Origin: Bacteroidales bacterium
Lineage (GTDB): Bacteria > Bacteroidota > Bacteroidia > Bacteroidales > F082
DNA length: 16,730 nucleotides
Direction: 5' to 3'
NCBI GenBank assembly: GCA_017508895.1
Contig: JAFWRA010000144.1
Span: 1 to 16,730 of the forward strand
The position numbers and the translations under genes were made by a program. Position 1 is the first letter of the stretch. The number at the start of each line of letters is the position of its first letter. Under the pieces are notes generated by a model that ran no database searches, was not told where the DNA came from, and saw only the letters and a program-made list of their open reading frames with translations. Shown piece by piece: positions 6,130 to 15,080 of this stretch.

Positions 6130-7085
6130 ATCAGCCGTTGCTTTCCTTAGGTCCTTTCCAAGGCATCACAGATGCGCCATTCCGCAACGTGTTCAAGAAG
6201 CATTTTAGCGGCATTGACAAGTTCTATACTCCATTTTTCACAGGCATTCATAAAGAAAACCACGCAAAGAACCTGCAAGGTGAGGAAATCGACCCACGCT
6301 ACAACGATGTAGAGACTTTGACACCACAAATTCTCAGCACCGATGCGGAAGAGATTTTGCGTTTCGCAAAGCAATGCCAACAATTAGGCTACAAAGAAAT
6401 CAATCTCAACATGGGGTGTCCGTTTCCACGGGTAGCCAACAAAAAACGTGGATGCGGTCTTCTACCCTACCCCGACAAGGTGGAGGCGCTGTTTGAAGCC
6501 ATCTTCGAGCACATCGACATCCGATTCAGCGTGAAGTGTCGGCTGGGTTATTTCAGTCCCGAGGAGATTAATGCCCTCATTCCCATCTTCAATCGCTTTC
6601 CGCTGAGCGAATTAATCATCCACCCTCGCATCGGAAAGCAGCTATACAAAGGAGAGGCTGATGTGGAGTGCTTCAAGACATTAATACCTATGATTAATGT
6701 GCCTTTGGTTTATAATGGGGATATTGTTTCGGTGGAAAGTTTTGAGCGTATTCACGAGGCAGTGCGTCCAGTCGACCAATTCATGTTGGGACGAGGTATA
6801 TTGGCGAATCCTTTTTTGGCAGAAGAGATCCGTGGGAACACACGCAATATGTCTGAAAAAGCCGAACGTTTGCATGCTTATGTTATTGACCTTTATGAAG
6901 ATAGACTGCATCATGCTGGAGGCAGCCCAAAGGTTTTGGGACGGATGAAGGAATTATGGTCCTATTTGATGAATGGTTTCGACAACTCACAAGACGTTTG
7001 GCGGAAAATCAAGAAAATCAACTCATTGAAAGAATATGAGGAGCAGGTGGAGCTCATATTCAAGCATCATGAAGTCATCATGTAA
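6126..7085 (+). CDS. dus: tRNA-dihydrouridine synthase
   Basis: A 319-residue flavoenzyme that reduces uridine in the tRNA D-loop using FMN and NADPH. Visible family marks are GPFQGITDAPFR (10-20), NLNMGCPFPRV with catalytic Cys98, SVKCRLGY (Lys137, Arg139), IIHPRIG (His166, Arg168), VYNGDI and MLGRGILANPFL, i.e. the TIM-barrel FMN site. The length is close to that of DusC-type enzymes. The start ATGA overlaps the lnt stop, so translation is coupled. The subclass (DusA/B/C) is not certain. Confidence 0.95.
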   Translation: MNQPLLSLGPFQGITDAPFRNVFKKHFSGIDKFYTPFFTGIHKENHAKNLQGEEIDPRYNDVETLTPQILSTDAEEILRFAKQCQQLGYKEINLNMGCPFPRVANKKRGCGLLPYPDKVEALFEAIFEHIDIRFSVKCRLGYFSPEEINALIPIFNRFPLSELIIHPRIGKQLYKGEADVECFKTLIPMINVPLVYNGDIVSVESFERIHEAVRPVDQFMLGRGILANPFLAEEIRGNTRNMSEKAERLHAYVIDLYEDRLHHAGGSPKVLGRMKELWSYLMNGFDNSQDVWRKIKKINSLKEYEEQVELIFKHHEVIM

Positions 7086-7094
7086 CACAAAAAA

Positions 7095-7119
7095 AGCCGC
7101 TTGACAGCGGCTATTTTTT
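7095..7119 (+). terminator. Terminator of lnt-dus
   Basis: AGCCGCT (7095-7101) pairs with AGCGGCT (7106-7112) around TGAC and is followed by ATTTTTT. It lies 10 bp after the dus stop. Confidence 0.92.
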
Positions 7120-7120
7120 G

Positions 7121-7142
7121 TACTCCCGCAGGGAGTATTTTT
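7121..7142 (+). terminator. Second hairpin with T-run, tandem to the dus terminator
   Basis: TACTCCC pairs perfectly with GGGAGTA around GCA and is followed by TTTTT. It directly follows the dus terminator and marks the apparent edge between host genes and the integrase region. It could be a back-up terminator or part of an attachment site. Confidence 0.6.
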
Positions 7143-7281: not shown

Positions 7282-7303
7282 CGTTGACACGGCGTTGACA
7301 CGG
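7282..7303. repeat. Tandem 11-bp repeat CGTTGACACGG x2 at the integrase promoter
   Basis: Two perfect adjacent copies (7282-7292, 7293-7303). The second supplies the only TTG that could be a -33 element, 22 nt before the -7 box, so it may be an operator or an integrase binding site. Similar TGACRC units occur at 13370-13399. Confidence 0.55.
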
Positions 7304-7319
7304 ATTCAAAATTATTTCG

Positions 7320-7327
7320 TATATTTG
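7320..7327 (+). promoter_or_regulatory. -7 box of the integrase promoter
   Basis: TATATTTG followed by CAG fits TAnnTTTG. It predicts a leader of about 70-75 nt before the integrase ATG. The spacing to the upstream TTG (22 nt) is at the long end. Confidence 0.6.
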
Positions 7328-7340
7328 CAGAGCCTTTGAG

Positions 7341-7414
7341 AAAGATAGGGGTATCTTTCGCAGGGGTAACGATAACTAACTGATGTTTAATTAAATAACT
7401 AATCTAATGGCAAC
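7341..7414 (+). promoter_or_regulatory. Structured integrase mRNA leader, predicted antisense-RNA target
   Basis: A 7-bp hairpin, AAAGATA/TATCTTT with loop GGGG (7341-7358), is followed by AGGGGTAACG (7362-7371), GATAACTA (7371-7378) and ATCTAATGGCAAC (7402-7414), which spans the start codon. Each of these segments recurs in the same order at 8966-9021 inside the loops of a predicted minus-strand RNA, so they are complementary to that RNA. Confidence 0.65.
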
Positions 7415-8900
7415 AATTAAGTATTACCTTTCGAGGTACATCAAGAAGGATGACGAAAGGGGTGAAATTCAACTTCGTTTTAGCGGAAATCGCAATTTTG
7501 TGAAAAGAGCGGCTACTGGAATCCGCATTACTGCGGGAAGTTGGGACGCTGAAAGAGGCACACCAAGGACGCGCAAAGTAAACAAATATGGCGACAACTG
7601 CGAGGAAATCCGGGATAGGCTCAGCCAACTTTCAGGCTATCTCCTGCGCTGCTGGGAACAGGCTGATGAAGGAACCGTGAAACCTGACGCGCTCACAAGA
7701 TGGATGGCAGACATTGAATGGAGAAGCTCACAAGAGAGCATCTTCATCAACGGACAGGAAACCACGGTGACCAAATGGTATATCGAGAGCAAGACCCAGC
7801 AGCAAGAGAAGAAGGTGGAAGAGAAGAAAGAGAGGAAGAAGATTGAAAACAAGACTTTCCTCGATGTCTATTCCTATTTCATCGAAGAGCAGTACAATAA
7901 TGGCGTTATCGGCGACAGCAGACACAAGACCTACTACACTTGCCACAGCTTATGGAATAGGATGGAAAGATACCAGCATAAGCAATACAGGGTCAAAGAC
8001 ATCACAACAGCCACGATATATGACTTCAGACATTTCGTGCTGAACGAATGCGACCTTTGGGAGATGAGGCGAGTCAAAGACGATAAGACAGGGGAAATGG
8101 TTGACAAGCTTATGCCCAAGAAGCAATACGATTACATCTACCAAGGCTATGAAATCATGAAGAGCCGAGGCGTAGAAAAGCGCAGTTTGAACTATGTAGT
8201 AATCCAAGTAAAGTATTTGAAAGCCTTTTGGCATTGGCTTATGAAGATCAAGAAAGTGGGTGTTGAAGACATTTTTTTGACCTACAACATGGACCAGGCT
8301 GTTTACGGCACACCTTACTATTTCACAAAGAAGGATAGGGAAATCCTTTACAAAGCAGATTTCAGCGATAGCCCTGAGCTGGCAATCCAAAGGGATATCT
8401 TCGTGTTTCAATCGCTCGTGGGGTGTCGCGTTGGAGACTTGAAACGCTTGAAGAAATCAAACATAATAGACGGAGAAGTCCTGCAGTACGTTGCCGGCAA
8501 GACCAAGAACAAAAGCGGAAAGATTGTGACGGTGCCGTTACACCCAATCGCACAGGAAATCATCAAACGCTATAGTATCATCGAAGGCGACCAGCTCCTC
8601 CCCTTCATCGCAGACCAGAACTATAATGAAGCCATCAAAAAGATGTTCAAGAAGGTTGATAAGATTGACCACGTGGTGACGGTACTTGACCCAGTGACCA
8701 GGCTGGAGAAACAGGTGAAGCTGTCGGAGGTGGCCAGCAGTCACATGGGCAGGAGGAATTTCTGCGGCAACCTTTATGAAGCAGGATATAGGGATGCGGA
8801 CATCGCATCGATGAGTGGACACGCGGAAGGTAGCAGGGCGATTGCCCGGTATCGAAAAGTGAGCGATGAAAGAAAAAAGAAGATGATTAAATCGCTATAA
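7407..8900 (+). CDS. Tyrosine recombinase (integrase)
   Basis: A 497-residue site-specific recombinase. The N-terminus (YYLSRYIKK...GEIQLRFSGNRNF, then a 'TGIRITAGSWDAERGTPR' segment) is the arm-type DNA-binding part seen in Bacteroidetes integrases. A charged linker (about 131-150, QQQEKKVEEKKERKKIENK) leads to the SAM-like core-binding domain (150-290). The catalytic domain has Arg341 (VGCRVGDL), Lys365 (GKTK), His446-x-x-Arg449 (SSHMGRR), His472 (SGHAEGS) and the nucleophile Tyr482 (IARYRKV), so it looks intact. The length exceeds the ~400 residues common in the group because of the N-terminal region and linker. It lies at the left edge of the GC-rich accessory region and is probably that island's integrase. 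Expression is likely set by the leader at 7341-7414 and the RNA at 8947-9026. Confidence 0.95.
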   Translation: MATIKYYLSRYIKKDDERGEIQLRFSGNRNFVKRAATGIRITAGSWDAERGTPRTRKVNKYGDNCEEIRDRLSQLSGYLLRCWEQADEGTVKPDALTRWMADIEWRSSQESIFINGQETTVTKWYIESKTQQQEKKVEEKKERKKIENKTFLDVYSYFIEEQYNNGVIGDSRHKTYYTCHSLWNRMERYQHKQYRVKDITTATIYDFRHFVLNECDLWEMRRVKDDKTGEMVDKLMPKKQYDYIYQGYEIMKSRGVEKRSLNYVVIQVKYLKAFWHWLMKIKKVGVEDIFLTYNMDQAVYGTPYYFTKKDREILYKADFSDSPELAIQRDIFVFQSLVGCRVGDLKRLKKSNIIDGEVLQYVAGKTKNKSGKIVTVPLHPIAQEIIKRYSIIEGDQLLPFIADQNYNEAIKKMFKKVDKIDHVVTVLDPVTRLEKQVKLSEVASSHMGRRNFCGNLYEAGYRDADIASMSGHAEGSRAIARYRKVSDERKKKMIKSL

Positions 8901-8908
8901 GAAAGGGC

Positions 8909-8939
8909 GGGGCGGTTGCCGAGGCAATCGCCCCATTTT
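8909..8939 (+). terminator. Integrase terminator
   Basis: GGGGCG-G-TTGCC (8909-8920) pairs with GGCAA-T-CGCCCC (8923-8934), one G-U pair and a GA turn, followed by ATTTTATT. It lies 8 bp after the integrase stop and faces the terminator of the minus-strand RNA. Confidence 0.88.
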
Positions 8940-8946
8940 ATTCAAT

Positions 8947-9026
8947 AAAAAAGGGAAGCCGCGATATAGGGGTAACGGCTTCCCATTCAGTGATAACTAC
9001 TGAACTCCATCTAATGGCAACGGAGC
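8947..9026 (-). ncRNA. Predicted ~80-nt three-hairpin antisense RNA against the integrase leader
   Basis: Read on the minus strand, three hairpins abut almost without spacers. Hairpin A: stem CUCC/GGAG with a 13-nt loop (9021-9009). Hairpin B: stem UUCAGU/ACUGAA with a 7-nt loop (8998-8992). Hairpin C: perfect 9-bp stem GGGAAGCCG/CGGCUUCCC with a 14-nt loop (8975-8962), followed by six U, i.e. a terminator. Loop A is complementary over all 13 nt to 7402-7414 including the integrase AUG; loop B over 7 nt to 7371-7377; loop C to 7362-7369 and also, over 9 nt, to the leader hairpin at 7345-7353. Order and polarity fit one antiparallel interaction. A -7 box at 9039-9032 places the 5' end right at hairpin A. 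I know no named family for it; existence as a transcript is inferred. Confidence 0.72.
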
Positions 9027-9031
9027 GACTG

Positions 9032-9039
9032 CAAAGATA
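9032..9039 (-). promoter_or_regulatory. -7 box of the antisense RNA
   Basis: TATCTTTG followed by CAG on the minus strand matches TAnnTTTG. The predicted first base is about 6-7 nt downstream, at hairpin A. The -33 element is weak. Confidence 0.55.
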
Positions 9040-10217: not shown

Positions 10218-10904
10218 TTAGGATTTGTTGATTTTACGGCCAACCTTCTCGGGGCGGGTCTTGATGATGAAAGACCCGAAGCCACGGAGGTACACGTTCT
10301 CACCCGAAGCGGCATAGGTGAGATAGAAATGGACATCATCACCCTGAGCACCCCAATTGCCGACAGGCACGGACACGCCCATGGACGGGTCGGTGACGTT
10401 AGTGTTGAAGATGCCGATCTTCTTTTGGGTGACGTTGTAGGCAACCGCGATGAAGTTGGCGGCGGCGGGTTTGCCGATGCTTTCGGCAGCGGCAACCTCG
10501 GCGTAGATATCCAACACATCGTCGGTGAGAGAGACGCGGCTGTCCAGCATTGGAGAGTCGATACGCTCACCGTTGCCGATACCCTCCAGCGTGGAGAGGT
10601 CGACGGTCTTCACGTCGTCCACGACGGCGGCGGCAGCCGCCAGCTGGCGGGTGAGCATGTTGCGGCGGGTCATGCCACGTGTGACAGACGGAAACAGGGA
10701 CTGCAGCTGCTCGTCGGTGAGCTGGCTAACAAGTCCATGCAGCTCCTTGAAGAAGGCGCGCTGCTGTAGCTGCGCTGCCGTCTTCGGGTTCTTGACGGAT
10801 TGGGCAATGCCTCTCATGTAGGCGATGCCGTTCCATGAGGCACCAATGACGGTGCCGACTTTACCTCTGAATCCTCCGAGGATTCCTTGCTTGATTTTTC
10901 CCAT
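10218..10904 (-). CDS. DUF6266-like protein, copy 1
   Basis: A 228-residue protein opening with the family's conserved GKIKQGILGGF..GKVGTVIG.SWNGIAYM block (residues 2-31), then 'KNPKT..Q...RAFF.EL' (39-52), a 'SQLT.EQL..LFP' helix and 'GMTRRN.L..QLAAA'. The C-terminal half is beta-rich with 'YNVTQKKIGIFNT' and a terminal 'GFGSF'. No signal peptide or membrane segment. The function of DUF6266 proteins is not known to me. Of the four copies its C-terminal half is the most different. It is 5 bp upstream of the membrane coiled-coil gene, suggesting a shared task. Confidence 0.85.
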   Translation of the reverse strand: MGKIKQGILGGFRGKVGTVIGASWNGIAYMRGIAQSVKNPKTAAQLQQRAFFKELHGLVSQLTDEQLQSLFPSVTRGMTRRNMLTRQLAAAAAVVDDVKTVDLSTLEGIGNGERIDSPMLDSRVSLTDDVLDIYAEVAAAESIGKPAAANFIAVAYNVTQKKIGIFNTNVTDPSMGVSVPVGNWGAQGDDVHFYLTYAASGENVYLRGFGSFIIKTRPEKVGRKINKS

Positions 10905-10935
10905 GATCTTAAAGTTTTAGGGGTTAGACATTAGG

Positions 10936-11610
10936 TTAGTTGTTCTTTTGGGGTGGACGTGCCGGGCGATTGACCACGCCCAACGTTCCGAAGCCGACGA
11001 GCGGAATCTTCTTGCCCGTGCTGAGCATGAAGCCGCTGTATTCATCGGAGCCGATGCCGAGGGCGTCGTGGTTGAGCATGAATGATTGGATGCCGGATGC
11101 TCCGACCGTCACTGTGGAATGCACGAGGAAGATCTTCTTCTGCGTGACATTGAACACACAGATGGTCGGGTACTCGTCGCCATGTTGTGCCCTCCAGTCG
11201 TTTTCGGCATCCCAAGAGATGGTAATAGTGGAACGCGAGGCGGTGATGGTGACATCAGGAAGGTCAGCCGTGGGCGCATTGCCGATGGTGGTCAGGTTGG
11301 CCAGGTCGACGTGCATGGCACCTTCCTCGACGACCTTGGCGGCAGCAAGCTGCTGCACCAGGGCGTTACGGCGGGACATGCCCTTGGCCGAATTGGGGAA
11401 CAGGAAGACCAGTTGCTCGTAGGTCAGCTGGCTGACGAGATCCTGGACTTCGCTGAAGAAGGCGCGGTGCGCAATCTGCGCAGCGGTCTTCGGGTCTTTC
11501 TGAGATTGTGGAAGGCCTTTCATGTAGGCGATGCCGTTCCACGAGGAGCCGATGACGGTTCCAACTTTGCCTTTGAATCCTCCAAGGATTCCCTGTTTGA
11601 TTTTTCCCAT
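10936..11610 (-). CDS. DUF6266-like protein, copy 2
   Basis: A 224-residue paralogue with the same N-terminal block (GKIKQGILGGFKGKVGTVIG) and 'KDPKTAAQIAHRAFFSEV', 'SQLTYEQLVFLFP', 'GMSRRNALVQQLAAA'. The second half has a Trp-containing strand (ISWDAENDW), 'FNVTQKKIFLVHSTV' and ends 'GFGTLGVVNRPARPPQKNN'. It is separated from copy 1 by 31 bp. The leader just before its start (CCCTTAAAA ... ATCATG) resembles those of copies 1 and 4, so the duplication included the translation start region. Confidence 0.85.
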   Translation of the reverse strand: MGKIKQGILGGFKGKVGTVIGSSWNGIAYMKGLPQSQKDPKTAAQIAHRAFFSEVQDLVSQLTYEQLVFLFPNSAKGMSRRNALVQQLAAAKVVEEGAMHVDLANLTTIGNAPTADLPDVTITASRSTITISWDAENDWRAQHGDEYPTICVFNVTQKKIFLVHSTVTVGASGIQSFMLNHDALGIGSDEYSGFMLSTGKKIPLVGFGTLGVVNRPARPPQKNN

Positions 11611-11624
11611 GATTTTCGAGTTTT

Positions 11625-12395
11625 TTAAGGGTTGGTTTTCTTGCTTTCTGCTTGCGATGTTGGTACGGACTTGTCTCGGACTTGGTCAGGACCCGATTCG
11701 GGCATTTTTTCCGCTTTCTCATCCTTCGTTTTCTTGGGTGGGAATGGCGGACGTTTGGTGACTCCGAGGGTGCCGAATCCGACCTTTGCACCACCTTGGC
11801 CAGTGGCGAACATGAATCCTGAGAACTCGTCGCGCTCCAGACCGTAGGGTTTAAGCTCGACTTCGAAGGATTGTTTGCCGCTGCTCTTCATCGCCACCGA
11901 GGATGCCACAAGAAACAGTCTTTGCTGTGTGATGTTGGCCACGAGGATAACGGGGAAGTCGTCGGGGTGCTGCTCGCGGTAGTAGGTAACGCCGTCCCAC
12001 GAGATTTGCAGGACGGTGCGGTTGGCAGCGACCGAGACCGCCGGAAGGTCGGTCACGGGTGCGTTGCCGAGGGAAGTCAGGCTGTCGAGGTCGACGGTCT
12101 TGGACTTGCCGACGACAGCCGCATAGGAAGCCAGCTGCTTGACGAGCAGGTTTCTGCGAGTCATGCCCTTGGGCTTCCGAGGGTAGATGAATTCCAGTTC
12201 CTCGTTGGTCAGTGACATGGAGAGCGTCACCAGCTCCTTGAAATAGCCTTGGCGCATGGCCTTGGCTCCTGAGCGGTCCTTCTTGTAGGACTGCGGCAGG
12301 CTTTTCATATAGAAGATGCCATTCCAGTAGGAGCCGACAACGGTTCCGACCTTGCCCCTGAACCCTCCGAGGATGCCTTGCTTGATTTTTCCCAT
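11625..12395 (-). CDS. DUF6266-like protein, copy 3, with extended tail
   Basis: A 256-residue paralogue with GKIKQGILGGFRGKVGTVVG, 'GYFKELVTLSMSLTNEELEFIYP' and 'GMTRRNLLVKQLASY'. The usual '.KNPKTA.Q' part is replaced by 'YKKDRSGAKAMRQ'. The core ends at 'GFGTLGVTKRPPFPPKK' as in the others, then a ~33-residue charged, low-complexity tail follows (KDEKAEKMPESG...ESKKTNP), absent from copies 1, 2 and 4. It lies 14 bp from copy 2 and just behind an internal terminator. Confidence 0.84.
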   Translation of the reverse strand: MGKIKQGILGGFRGKVGTVVGSYWNGIFYMKSLPQSYKKDRSGAKAMRQGYFKELVTLSMSLTNEELEFIYPRKPKGMTRRNLLVKQLASYAAVVGKSKTVDLDSLTSLGNAPVTDLPAVSVAANRTVLQISWDGVTYYREQHPDDFPVILVANITQQRLFLVASSVAMKSSGKQSFEVELKPYGLERDEFSGFMFATGQGGAKVGFGTLGVTKRPPFPPKKTKDEKAEKMPESGPDQVRDKSVPTSQAESKKTNP

Positions 12396-12417
12396 AGCGC
12401 TTTGGTTTTAGTGCTTT

Positions 12418-12445
12418 CAAAAAAAGCCGCCCGAGGGGACGGCTT
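12418..12445 (-). terminator. Internal terminator between DUF6266-like copies 4 and 3
   Basis: On the minus strand AAGCCG-T-CCC-CTC-GGG-CGGCTT (one bulge) is followed by a run of seven T. It lies about 30 bp after the stop of copy 4 and 23 bp before the start of copy 3. I see no promoter between it and copy 3, so downstream genes would depend on read-through or an unseen promoter. Confidence 0.78.
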
Positions 12446-12473
12446 CAAAAAGATGATGAAAAACAGAAAAAGC

Positions 12474-13145
12474 TTAGTCGCGCTTCTTGGGGCGAGCGGG
12501 ACGCTTGGTGACGATCATCGTGCCGAAGCCGACCAGCGGCACCTTCCCACCCGTGGCGAGCATGAAGCCGCTGAAGGTGTCTTCGGCTTCGCCGTAGGCG
12601 GCCAGGCCGACATTGAACGACTGGGCACCAGTCGTGCCGATGGCGACAGTGGAAGGCACGAGATAGACCTTCTTCTTGGTGACGTTGGTCACGAAGATGA
12701 CGGGGTACTCGTCGCCGTGCTCAGCGCGGAAGTCGTTGTCGCCGTTCCAAGAGATGGTCAGGTTCTCGCCAGCAGCGGTGATGGCGACCTCGGGCATGTC
12801 GGCGGTAGCCGCGTTGCCGAGGGAGTTGATATTGCCCAGGTCGACGCTCTTGGTGTCGCCATCGACGGCGGACACGGCGGCGAGCTGCTTGACGAGGGCG
12901 TTGCGGCGGGTCATGCCGCTGGGAGCCGTCGGGAACAGGAAGGCCAGCTGCTCGTTGGTGAACTGACCTGCGAGGTCCATGACCTCCCTGAAGAAGCCGC
13001 GCTGGGTCTGCTGGCCAGCGGTCTTCGGGTTCTTTACGGATTGGGCGAGGCCGCGCATGTAGGCGATGCCGTTCCACGAGGAGCCGATGACGGTTCCCAC
13101 TTTACCTTTGAATCCTCCGAGGATTCCTTGCTTGATTTTACCCAT
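12474..13145 (-). CDS. DUF6266-like protein, copy 4 (promoter-proximal)
   Basis: A 223-residue paralogue with GKIKQGILGGFKGKVGTVIG, 'KNPKTAGQQTQRGFFREV', 'GQFTNEQLAFLFP', 'GMTRRNALVKQLAAV', a Trp strand (ISWNGDNDF), 'TNVTKKKVYLVPSTV' and the end 'GFGTMIVTKRPARPKKRD'. It is closest to copy 2. Codon use is strongly G/C-ended (much C/G at third positions), which produces long open frames on the opposite strand that I do not regard as genes. It is first behind the promoter at 13324-13331 and is followed by its own terminator, so it is probably the most abundant of the four products. Confidence 0.86.
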   Translation of the reverse strand: MGKIKQGILGGFKGKVGTVIGSSWNGIAYMRGLAQSVKNPKTAGQQTQRGFFREVMDLAGQFTNEQLAFLFPTAPSGMTRRNALVKQLAAVSAVDGDTKSVDLGNINSLGNAATADMPEVAITAAGENLTISWNGDNDFRAEHGDEYPVIFVTNVTKKKVYLVPSTVAIGTTGAQSFNVGLAAYGEAEDTFSGFMLATGGKVPLVGFGTMIVTKRPARPKKRD

Positions 13146-14703: not shown

Positions 14704-15080
14704 AAGGGTGGTGGCGGGGTTTGATGGAGGTACGGAGCGGAGCTTTGCGGAGCGACATCTTTCCGAACTTTTGATTTAGGATGGCGGTTGGGGTCGATGG
14801 TGGTTACGGAGCGAGGCTTGCCGAGCGTCTTTCCGAACTTTCAAATACGGGTGGTTGGTGGGGTCGATGGTGGTTGGCCGGAGCGAAGCGTCAGCGGAGC
14901 GACAACACTTTCCAAATGCTCGACTAAGGGTGGCGGTTGGGGTCGATGGAGGTCACGGAGCGAGGCTTGCCGAGCGACTTTCCAAACTTTCAAATACGGG
15001 TGGTAGGTGGGGACGATGGTGGTTGACCAGAGCGAAGCGTCAGCGGAGCGACCTGACCTGTACTCTGGGGTGGTGGTCGG
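14704..15080. repeat. ~72-bp G-rich tandem repeats, five copies plus a partial sixth
   Basis: Units start near 14704, 14778, 14848, 14926, 14998 and 15066. Each opens with a G-run block (e.g. GGGTGGCGGTTGGGGTCGATGG), then a GAGCG-rich part, then TTTCC(A/G)AACTTTCAAATA or a variant. Two sub-types alternate: type A (units at 14778 and 14926) has GAGCGAGGCTTGCCGAGCG; type B (14848 and 14998) has GAGCGAAGCGTCAGCGGAGC. The alternation suggests expansion of a two-unit block. Four or more closely spaced G-runs per unit could form G-quadruplexes. Small open frames in it differ from unit to unit and do not look coding. Confidence 0.75.

Follow-up and report, generated by a model that had tools for sequence, protein, structure and literature searches.

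A small mobile element from a Bacteroidales genome carries, directly downstream of its integrase gene, a gene for an antisense RNA of ~80 nt that very probably represses the integrase of the same element. The window—the whole analyzed stretch of 16,730 nt, positions 1–16,730 of contig JAFWRA010000144.1 from Bacteroidales bacterium assembly GCA_017508895.1 (F082)—contains both genes. Joint changes in RNA and integrase leader among related elements make it very probable that the RNA turns the integrase off. The reading that best fits the sequences is a trans-acting, three-site antisense repressor of integrase translation, based on the position and convergent orientation of the RNA gene, its promoter-like and terminator signatures, and three ordered, co-changing sites of complementarity. 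A sequence-only reading of the window had suggested that an antisense RNA targets the integrase leader in trans; the sequences of related elements support that proposal, with loops that follow the leader in 18 distinct systems.

The element is of a kind found in gut and rumen bacteria, and BLAST homology to the same element elsewhere extends from ~7105 to ~14686. Its left-end inverted repeat (GTACTCCCGCAGGGAGTA, 7120–7137, no strand assigned) lies near the homology break, with the BLAST match starting at 7105. The proposed target, a tyrosine integrase of 497 aa (7407–8900, plus strand), matches Pfam PF00589 (E = 2.8e-11) and a PHROG integrase family (E = 5.7e-21). Upstream, on the plus strand, stands TATATTTGC (7320–7328), seen in the sequence and taken as the probable −7 box of the integrase promoter; a terminator-like hairpin with a T-run, recognized by eye, follows the gene on the same strand (8906–8938). 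Further genes encode a 158-aa protein (lipoprotein-like by eye), an 84-aa protein, an SNase-family nuclease, and an M15 peptidase/endolysin-like protein.

The RNA gene sits on the minus strand at about 9028–8948, convergent to the integrase and between it and the remaining element genes; its ends were placed from a −7 box and a terminator, and predicted folds and a covariance-model match beside the integrase in each of 23 relatives support it. The box, TATCTTTGC (9039–9031, minus strand), presumably of the Bacteroidota −7 type, belongs to a pattern, GCAAA[AG][AG]TA, present downstream of the integrase in 24 of 24 close loci. The third hairpin of the RNA ends in a T-run, a terminator signature. 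No Rfam family matched the region at its gathering threshold, and the weak matches (E up to 5) were unrelated.

The minimum-free-energy fold of 8947–9025 (−29.7 kcal/mol) forms three hairpins with the matched bases mainly in loops. Read on the minus strand, these are hairpin 1 (9005–9025, stem CTCC/GGAG), whose loop at 9009–9021 is complementary to the start-codon region; a middle hairpin (8986–9004), in which 8992–8999 is complementary to 7371–7378; and the terminator hairpin (8953–8984), whose loop at 8966–8974 is complementary to the top of a leader hairpin. The fold also places three weak pairs, including two G-U pairs, within loop 1. The three abutting hairpins originally described thus hold for the window fold but do not generalize: Only 5 of 18 RNAs are predicted to form the middle hairpin, and the segment is a linker in the other 13 folds. 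Three hairpins were accordingly rejected as the defining architecture, which in the predicted folds is two conserved hairpins plus a pairing linker.

Exact matches between the plus strand of 8947–9026, the complement of the RNA, and the integrase leader define three sites, all on the plus strand. Site C, ATCTAATGGCAAC (7402–7414), covers the integrase start codon and equals 9009–9021 over 13 nt. Site B, GATAACTA (7371–7378), equals 8992–8999 over 8 nt, and site A, ATAGGGGTA (7345–7353), equals 8966–8974 over 9 nt. Site A occupies the top of a predicted 5′ leader hairpin (7332–7368), the unpaired tip of which consists of GGGG alone (7348–7351). The loops are complementary to the leader in antiparallel order, so the collinear arrangement and the start-codon match reported earlier were recovered at their positions, and the mid-leader match begins at 7371 as reported but extends to 8 nt rather than 7. 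The collinear match score of the window is 18, reached by 0 of 2000 dinucleotide shuffles of the leader (largest, 11), in agreement with the earlier judgment that such matching is unlikely by chance.

The partner of loop 3 required revision. The pairing first proposed for it, with 7362–7371, exists as an exact 10-nt match to 8968–8977 (AGGGGTAACG), but the usual partner among relatives is the top of the leader hairpin, represented in the window by 7345–7353, a match additional to those listed before. As a general target of loop 3, 7362–7371 was rejected, given that in 15 of 18 systems the duplex at site A contacts the loop of the leader's first hairpin; in the window copy, 7362–7371 may provide an additional contact.

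A search of 173 genomes of the nearest family returned 23 close integrase copies (57–100% identity), after which matches drop to E ~1e-60. A covariance model likewise gave 23 strong matches (E of 1.9e-11 or better; following match, 6e-5; matches of 25–33 bits treated as noise), and integrases and RNAs pair one to one by coordinates. The model was built from 18 RNAs of these same loci, so its result—no strong RNA copy away from an integrase in the 173 genomes—documents that further strong copies are lacking and does not amount to independent discovery. In all 24 loci, the window included, the integrase is followed downstream by a convergent RNA gene whose stems are of the GGAAGCC/GGCTTCC and CTCC/GGAG kind, and 97.1% of stem cells are paired (17 distinct RNA rows). 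With identical pairs dropped, the 24 loci yield 18 distinct leader/RNA pairs, which were sorted by eye from the score matrix into nine groups. Across the order (393 genomes), a close integrase or strong RNA match occurred only in G001 and G110, both of the same genus; G201 and G443 gave partial integrase matches (44–45%).

Compared across the 18 systems, the loops change with their own leader while the stems stay. Loops that diverge from the leader over constant stems, the pattern named at the outset as speaking against antisense control, were looked for in the related islands, and the opposite was found. The joint change is plainest between the window and L047–L050, where position −2 relative to the start codon differs and its counterpart in loop 1 does too; in L008, start region and loop are both unlike those of the window and agree with each other. 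Leader bases −4 to −1 before the ATG equal those of the RNA in 37 of 40 cells in ten chosen systems, a result equaled by 0 of 200,000 permutations; the ten systems show ten different leader states over these positions, and the RNA follows. Co-variation of the pairing region with its target, a feature of base-pairing antisense regulators, is thus present here.

The same correspondence holds when all sites are scored together. For the nine group representatives, the own partner heads both row and column in 9 of 9 cases (own combined scores 11–20; others, mean 6.3 and maximum 14), the true assignment of leaders to RNAs is the best of 362,880 permutations, and for each representative 0 of 2000 shuffles reach the own score. 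By duplex energy of single sites, the permutations at least as good as the true one, itself included, number 91 (A), 1 (B), and 1 (C) of 362,880, with the own partner first in 3/9, 7/9, and 5/9 leader rows, respectively; site A is therefore the weakest single site. Averaged over the 18 systems, bases of the RNA at sites A, B, and C are unpaired with probabilities of 0.80, 0.69, and 0.58, compared with 0.28 for its other bases; the leader shows little contrast (0.55, 0.66, and 0.61 against 0.50).

Several systems depart from the common pattern. L051 has a site A duplex that misses the loop of the leader's first hairpin; L052/L053 have two copies of the 5-nt site A match, and the more favorable duplex lies downstream of that loop. 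Codon 2 is mismatched in L051 and L052/L053, the match ends at ATGG in L054, L055, and L058, and the mid-leader partner in L008 is ambiguous. L058 is marginal, with a chain score of 11 against maxima of 10 for shuffles and 12 for unrelated leaders. The leader of L059 scores 21 with the RNA of L062 and 16 with its own; cross-reaction within a group is expected. In L062 itself (G127:C1), the integrase is interrupted by one in-frame stop, and leader and RNA still match with the highest own score, 20.

As proposed, repression would begin with a kissing contact between the terminator loop and the top of the mRNA 5′ hairpin at site A. Pairing would then spread to the mid leader at site B, through the linker or middle hairpin, and hairpin 1 would finally settle over the start codon at site C and prevent ribosome initiation. 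As the free product of a separate gene, the RNA from a resident copy could also reach additional or incoming copies that share its leader and act on them in trans. The element would thereby be kept quiet, with integrase output falling as copy number rises, and the sequences are compatible with a role of the RNA in copy exclusion.

Complementarity to the start codon favors a block of translation over the most serious alternative, which we consider unlikely yet worth weighing: that the RNA pairs with the leader and acts mainly through early transcription termination or exposure to RNase. Site A lies near the extreme 5′ end of the leader, where nascent RNA could be affected; against this, site C ranks first among the three in summed duplex energy and includes the start codon, all three bases of which fall within the duplex in 15 of 18 systems and two in the other three (L054, L055, and L058).

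Base pairing is symmetrical, so the leader might conversely act as a sponge, titrating an RNA that in fact controls a different gene. We regard this as improbable. The leader sequence that is covered includes the start codon, strong copies of the RNA apart from an integrase are absent from the 173 genomes, and of 84,024 other stretches in the 18 loci, taken on both strands outside the RNA gene and the leader with a leader-length frame moved in steps of 4, none scores as high as the own leader. The opposite strand of the RNA itself was removed from this set; if it is kept in, 14 windows of L055 reach the score.

Activation of the integrase, for instance if the RNA unfolded an inhibitory structure in the leader or shielded the 5′ end, is a very remote prospect: The RNA does pair with the 5′ hairpin, but the start region that it covers is not strongly folded in prediction (0.61 unpaired at site C). 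Least credible, and given almost no weight, is a functionless copy of the leader left by duplication, a recombination scar, or repeated gene conversion, for although at the DNA level the matches form collinear direct repeats and sites A and B are spaced equally (26 nt) in leader and RNA of the window, the matches largely end at loop borders, the stems are conserved and unrelated to the leader (as the sequence-only reading had emphasized), the last two matches are spaced differently in leader and RNA of nine close loci, and the RNA tracks ten leader states in the ten chosen systems, so that chance, duplication scar, and gene conversion were all rejected by the permutation, stem-conservation, specificity, and −4 to −1 tests.

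By analogy, the repressor is best read as working like RNA II of pAD1 par and the C4 RNA of phage P1 while belonging to neither family; it was placed outside par, C4, and RNA-OUT because a defining feature of each was checked and is absent here. The proposed order of contacts is that published for pAD1 par, in which kissing of the terminator loops precedes coverage of the initiation site by direct repeats (PMC7472228). The present system shares with par/Fst (type I) convergent genes and dispersed direct-repeat complementarity over the initiation site. In L051, L054, and L055, moreover, the RNA terminator abuts the integrase stop codon, an arrangement resembling a shared terminator. The window, unlike par, has no shared bidirectional terminator, the integrase having its own terminator-like hairpin at 8906–8938; the pairing regions are 1.5 kb apart and the host belongs to the Bacteroidota. 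In contrast to par, the target is a 497-aa Phage_integrase protein rather than a 33-aa toxin, and the terminator loop pairs with the 5′ leader hairpin rather than with the terminator of the mRNA.

C4 of P1/P7 is a structured RNA of ~77 nt that serves phage immunity and has two loops, each of which pairs with its own segment of the mRNA: One targets the ribosome-binding site, and the other gives specificity (PMC5320573). C4 is the parallel for an immunity role of the present RNA, and it differs in being processed from a larger transcript by RNase P, whereas here the gene has promoter and terminator signatures of its own. The C4 structural family was absent from the Rfam matches for the RNA region.

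IS10 RNA-OUT is a 69-nt trans-acting antisense RNA that blocks translation of a recombination enzyme and forms the basis of multicopy inhibition; at single copy, such control has little effect (PMC5006887). The original comparison with RNA-OUT survives as a parallel for copy-dependent control but not in its layout. RNA-OUT overlaps its target gene with 35 continuous complementary nt, whereas the present RNA comes from a separate gene and pairs at three short sites; 8948–9028 lies 1.5 kb from the leader and so lacks the overlap with the target 5′ region that marks IS10-type cis-antisense RNAs. The target, a tyrosine integrase, also differs. The sgm-sRNA of SGI1 is a small RNA encoded by a genomic island (PMC9299015), and the present RNA resembles it in being element-encoded.

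Loop-pairing control as such is already known; what appears new from the sequences is a variant aimed at a tyrosine integrase. Our literature search, with most subscription papers outside its reach, found no antisense RNA against a tyrosine integrase mRNA. A reading we hold only tentatively, with the balance of our judgment somewhat against it, treats the loops as an RNA-coded immunity or incompatibility tag: A resident would silence newcomers with the same leader, which would split the clade into about nine leader/loop specificity groups, and elements of different groups could settle together. In each of three genomes with two elements (G115, G121, and G127), the two belong to different groups (3 of 3), but by a hand estimate from group frequencies chance alone would give this outcome about half the time. 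In Fst-family systems, different repeats are thought to allow two systems to coexist (PMC7472228, PMC4147584).

The naturally matched leader/loop pairs form a ready set for studying how multi-site loop pairing encodes specificity, and the same series can be used to ask whether mobile elements employ pairing for copy control or mutual exclusion. The case also indicates that a regulatory RNA and its target can be found from raw sequence, in that co-variation later bore out the find.

Among more distant integrases (18 loci, 30–46% identity), 17 of 18 did not exceed the unrelated-leader maximum downstream, and the lack of a convincing RNA makes the system look like a trait of a single clade. The exception, L085, scored 12 against 10 and was judged unconvincing, its matches being short, AT-rich, located 0.5 kb away, and not part of an RNA of this kind; L080 scored 16 upstream, where the score has no null, via A-rich repeats and was likewise judged unconvincing. 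Five phage and plasmid relatives (L009–L013; L007, L044, L134, and L135 lie outside this set) gave isolated 10–12-nt matches only, scored with no null. In viral collections, the integrase scan was empty, the profile scan returned one distant locus (L044), and the sole DNA-pattern match (L045) was judged to be due to chance from inspection of 3.2 kb of that locus.

The element also carries four DUF6266-type ORFs as an array spanning 10218–13145; two (10218–10904 and 12474–13145) lie above the Pfam cut-off and the two between them were placed by clustering. The first shows a weak C-terminal match, below cut-off, to HU/IHF models, and a literature search of the same limited reach found no paper naming DUF6266.

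Other observations concern the element ends and their surroundings. No convincing direct repeats were found at the element ends. In ~22 of 24 loci, by eye, the left end immediately follows a hairpin resembling a host intrinsic terminator (hairpin and left end together at 7070–7137 in the window), the exceptions being L054 and L055. The sequences of these hairpins and the neighboring genes vary among loci, and their folding energies are unexceptional relative to local background in many of the 24. Sites just past terminators may be targeted by the integrase or favored by selection. The left-end inverted repeat varies by group (GTACTCCC, GTGCCCC, GTGACCC, and GTAGTCTC), apparently in rough parallel with the leader/loop groups. 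Upstream of the integrase promoter, 7283–7303 holds two copies of GTTGACACGG, 11 bp apart, which are possible integrase or repressor sites; the pair recurs with minor differences in the 10 loci compared, and L062 has a second pair further upstream. A partial tRNA match occupies the window edge (1–50), and just to the right of the element, 14720–14850 contains repeated units of the GGTACGGAGCG and TTTCCGAAC kind.
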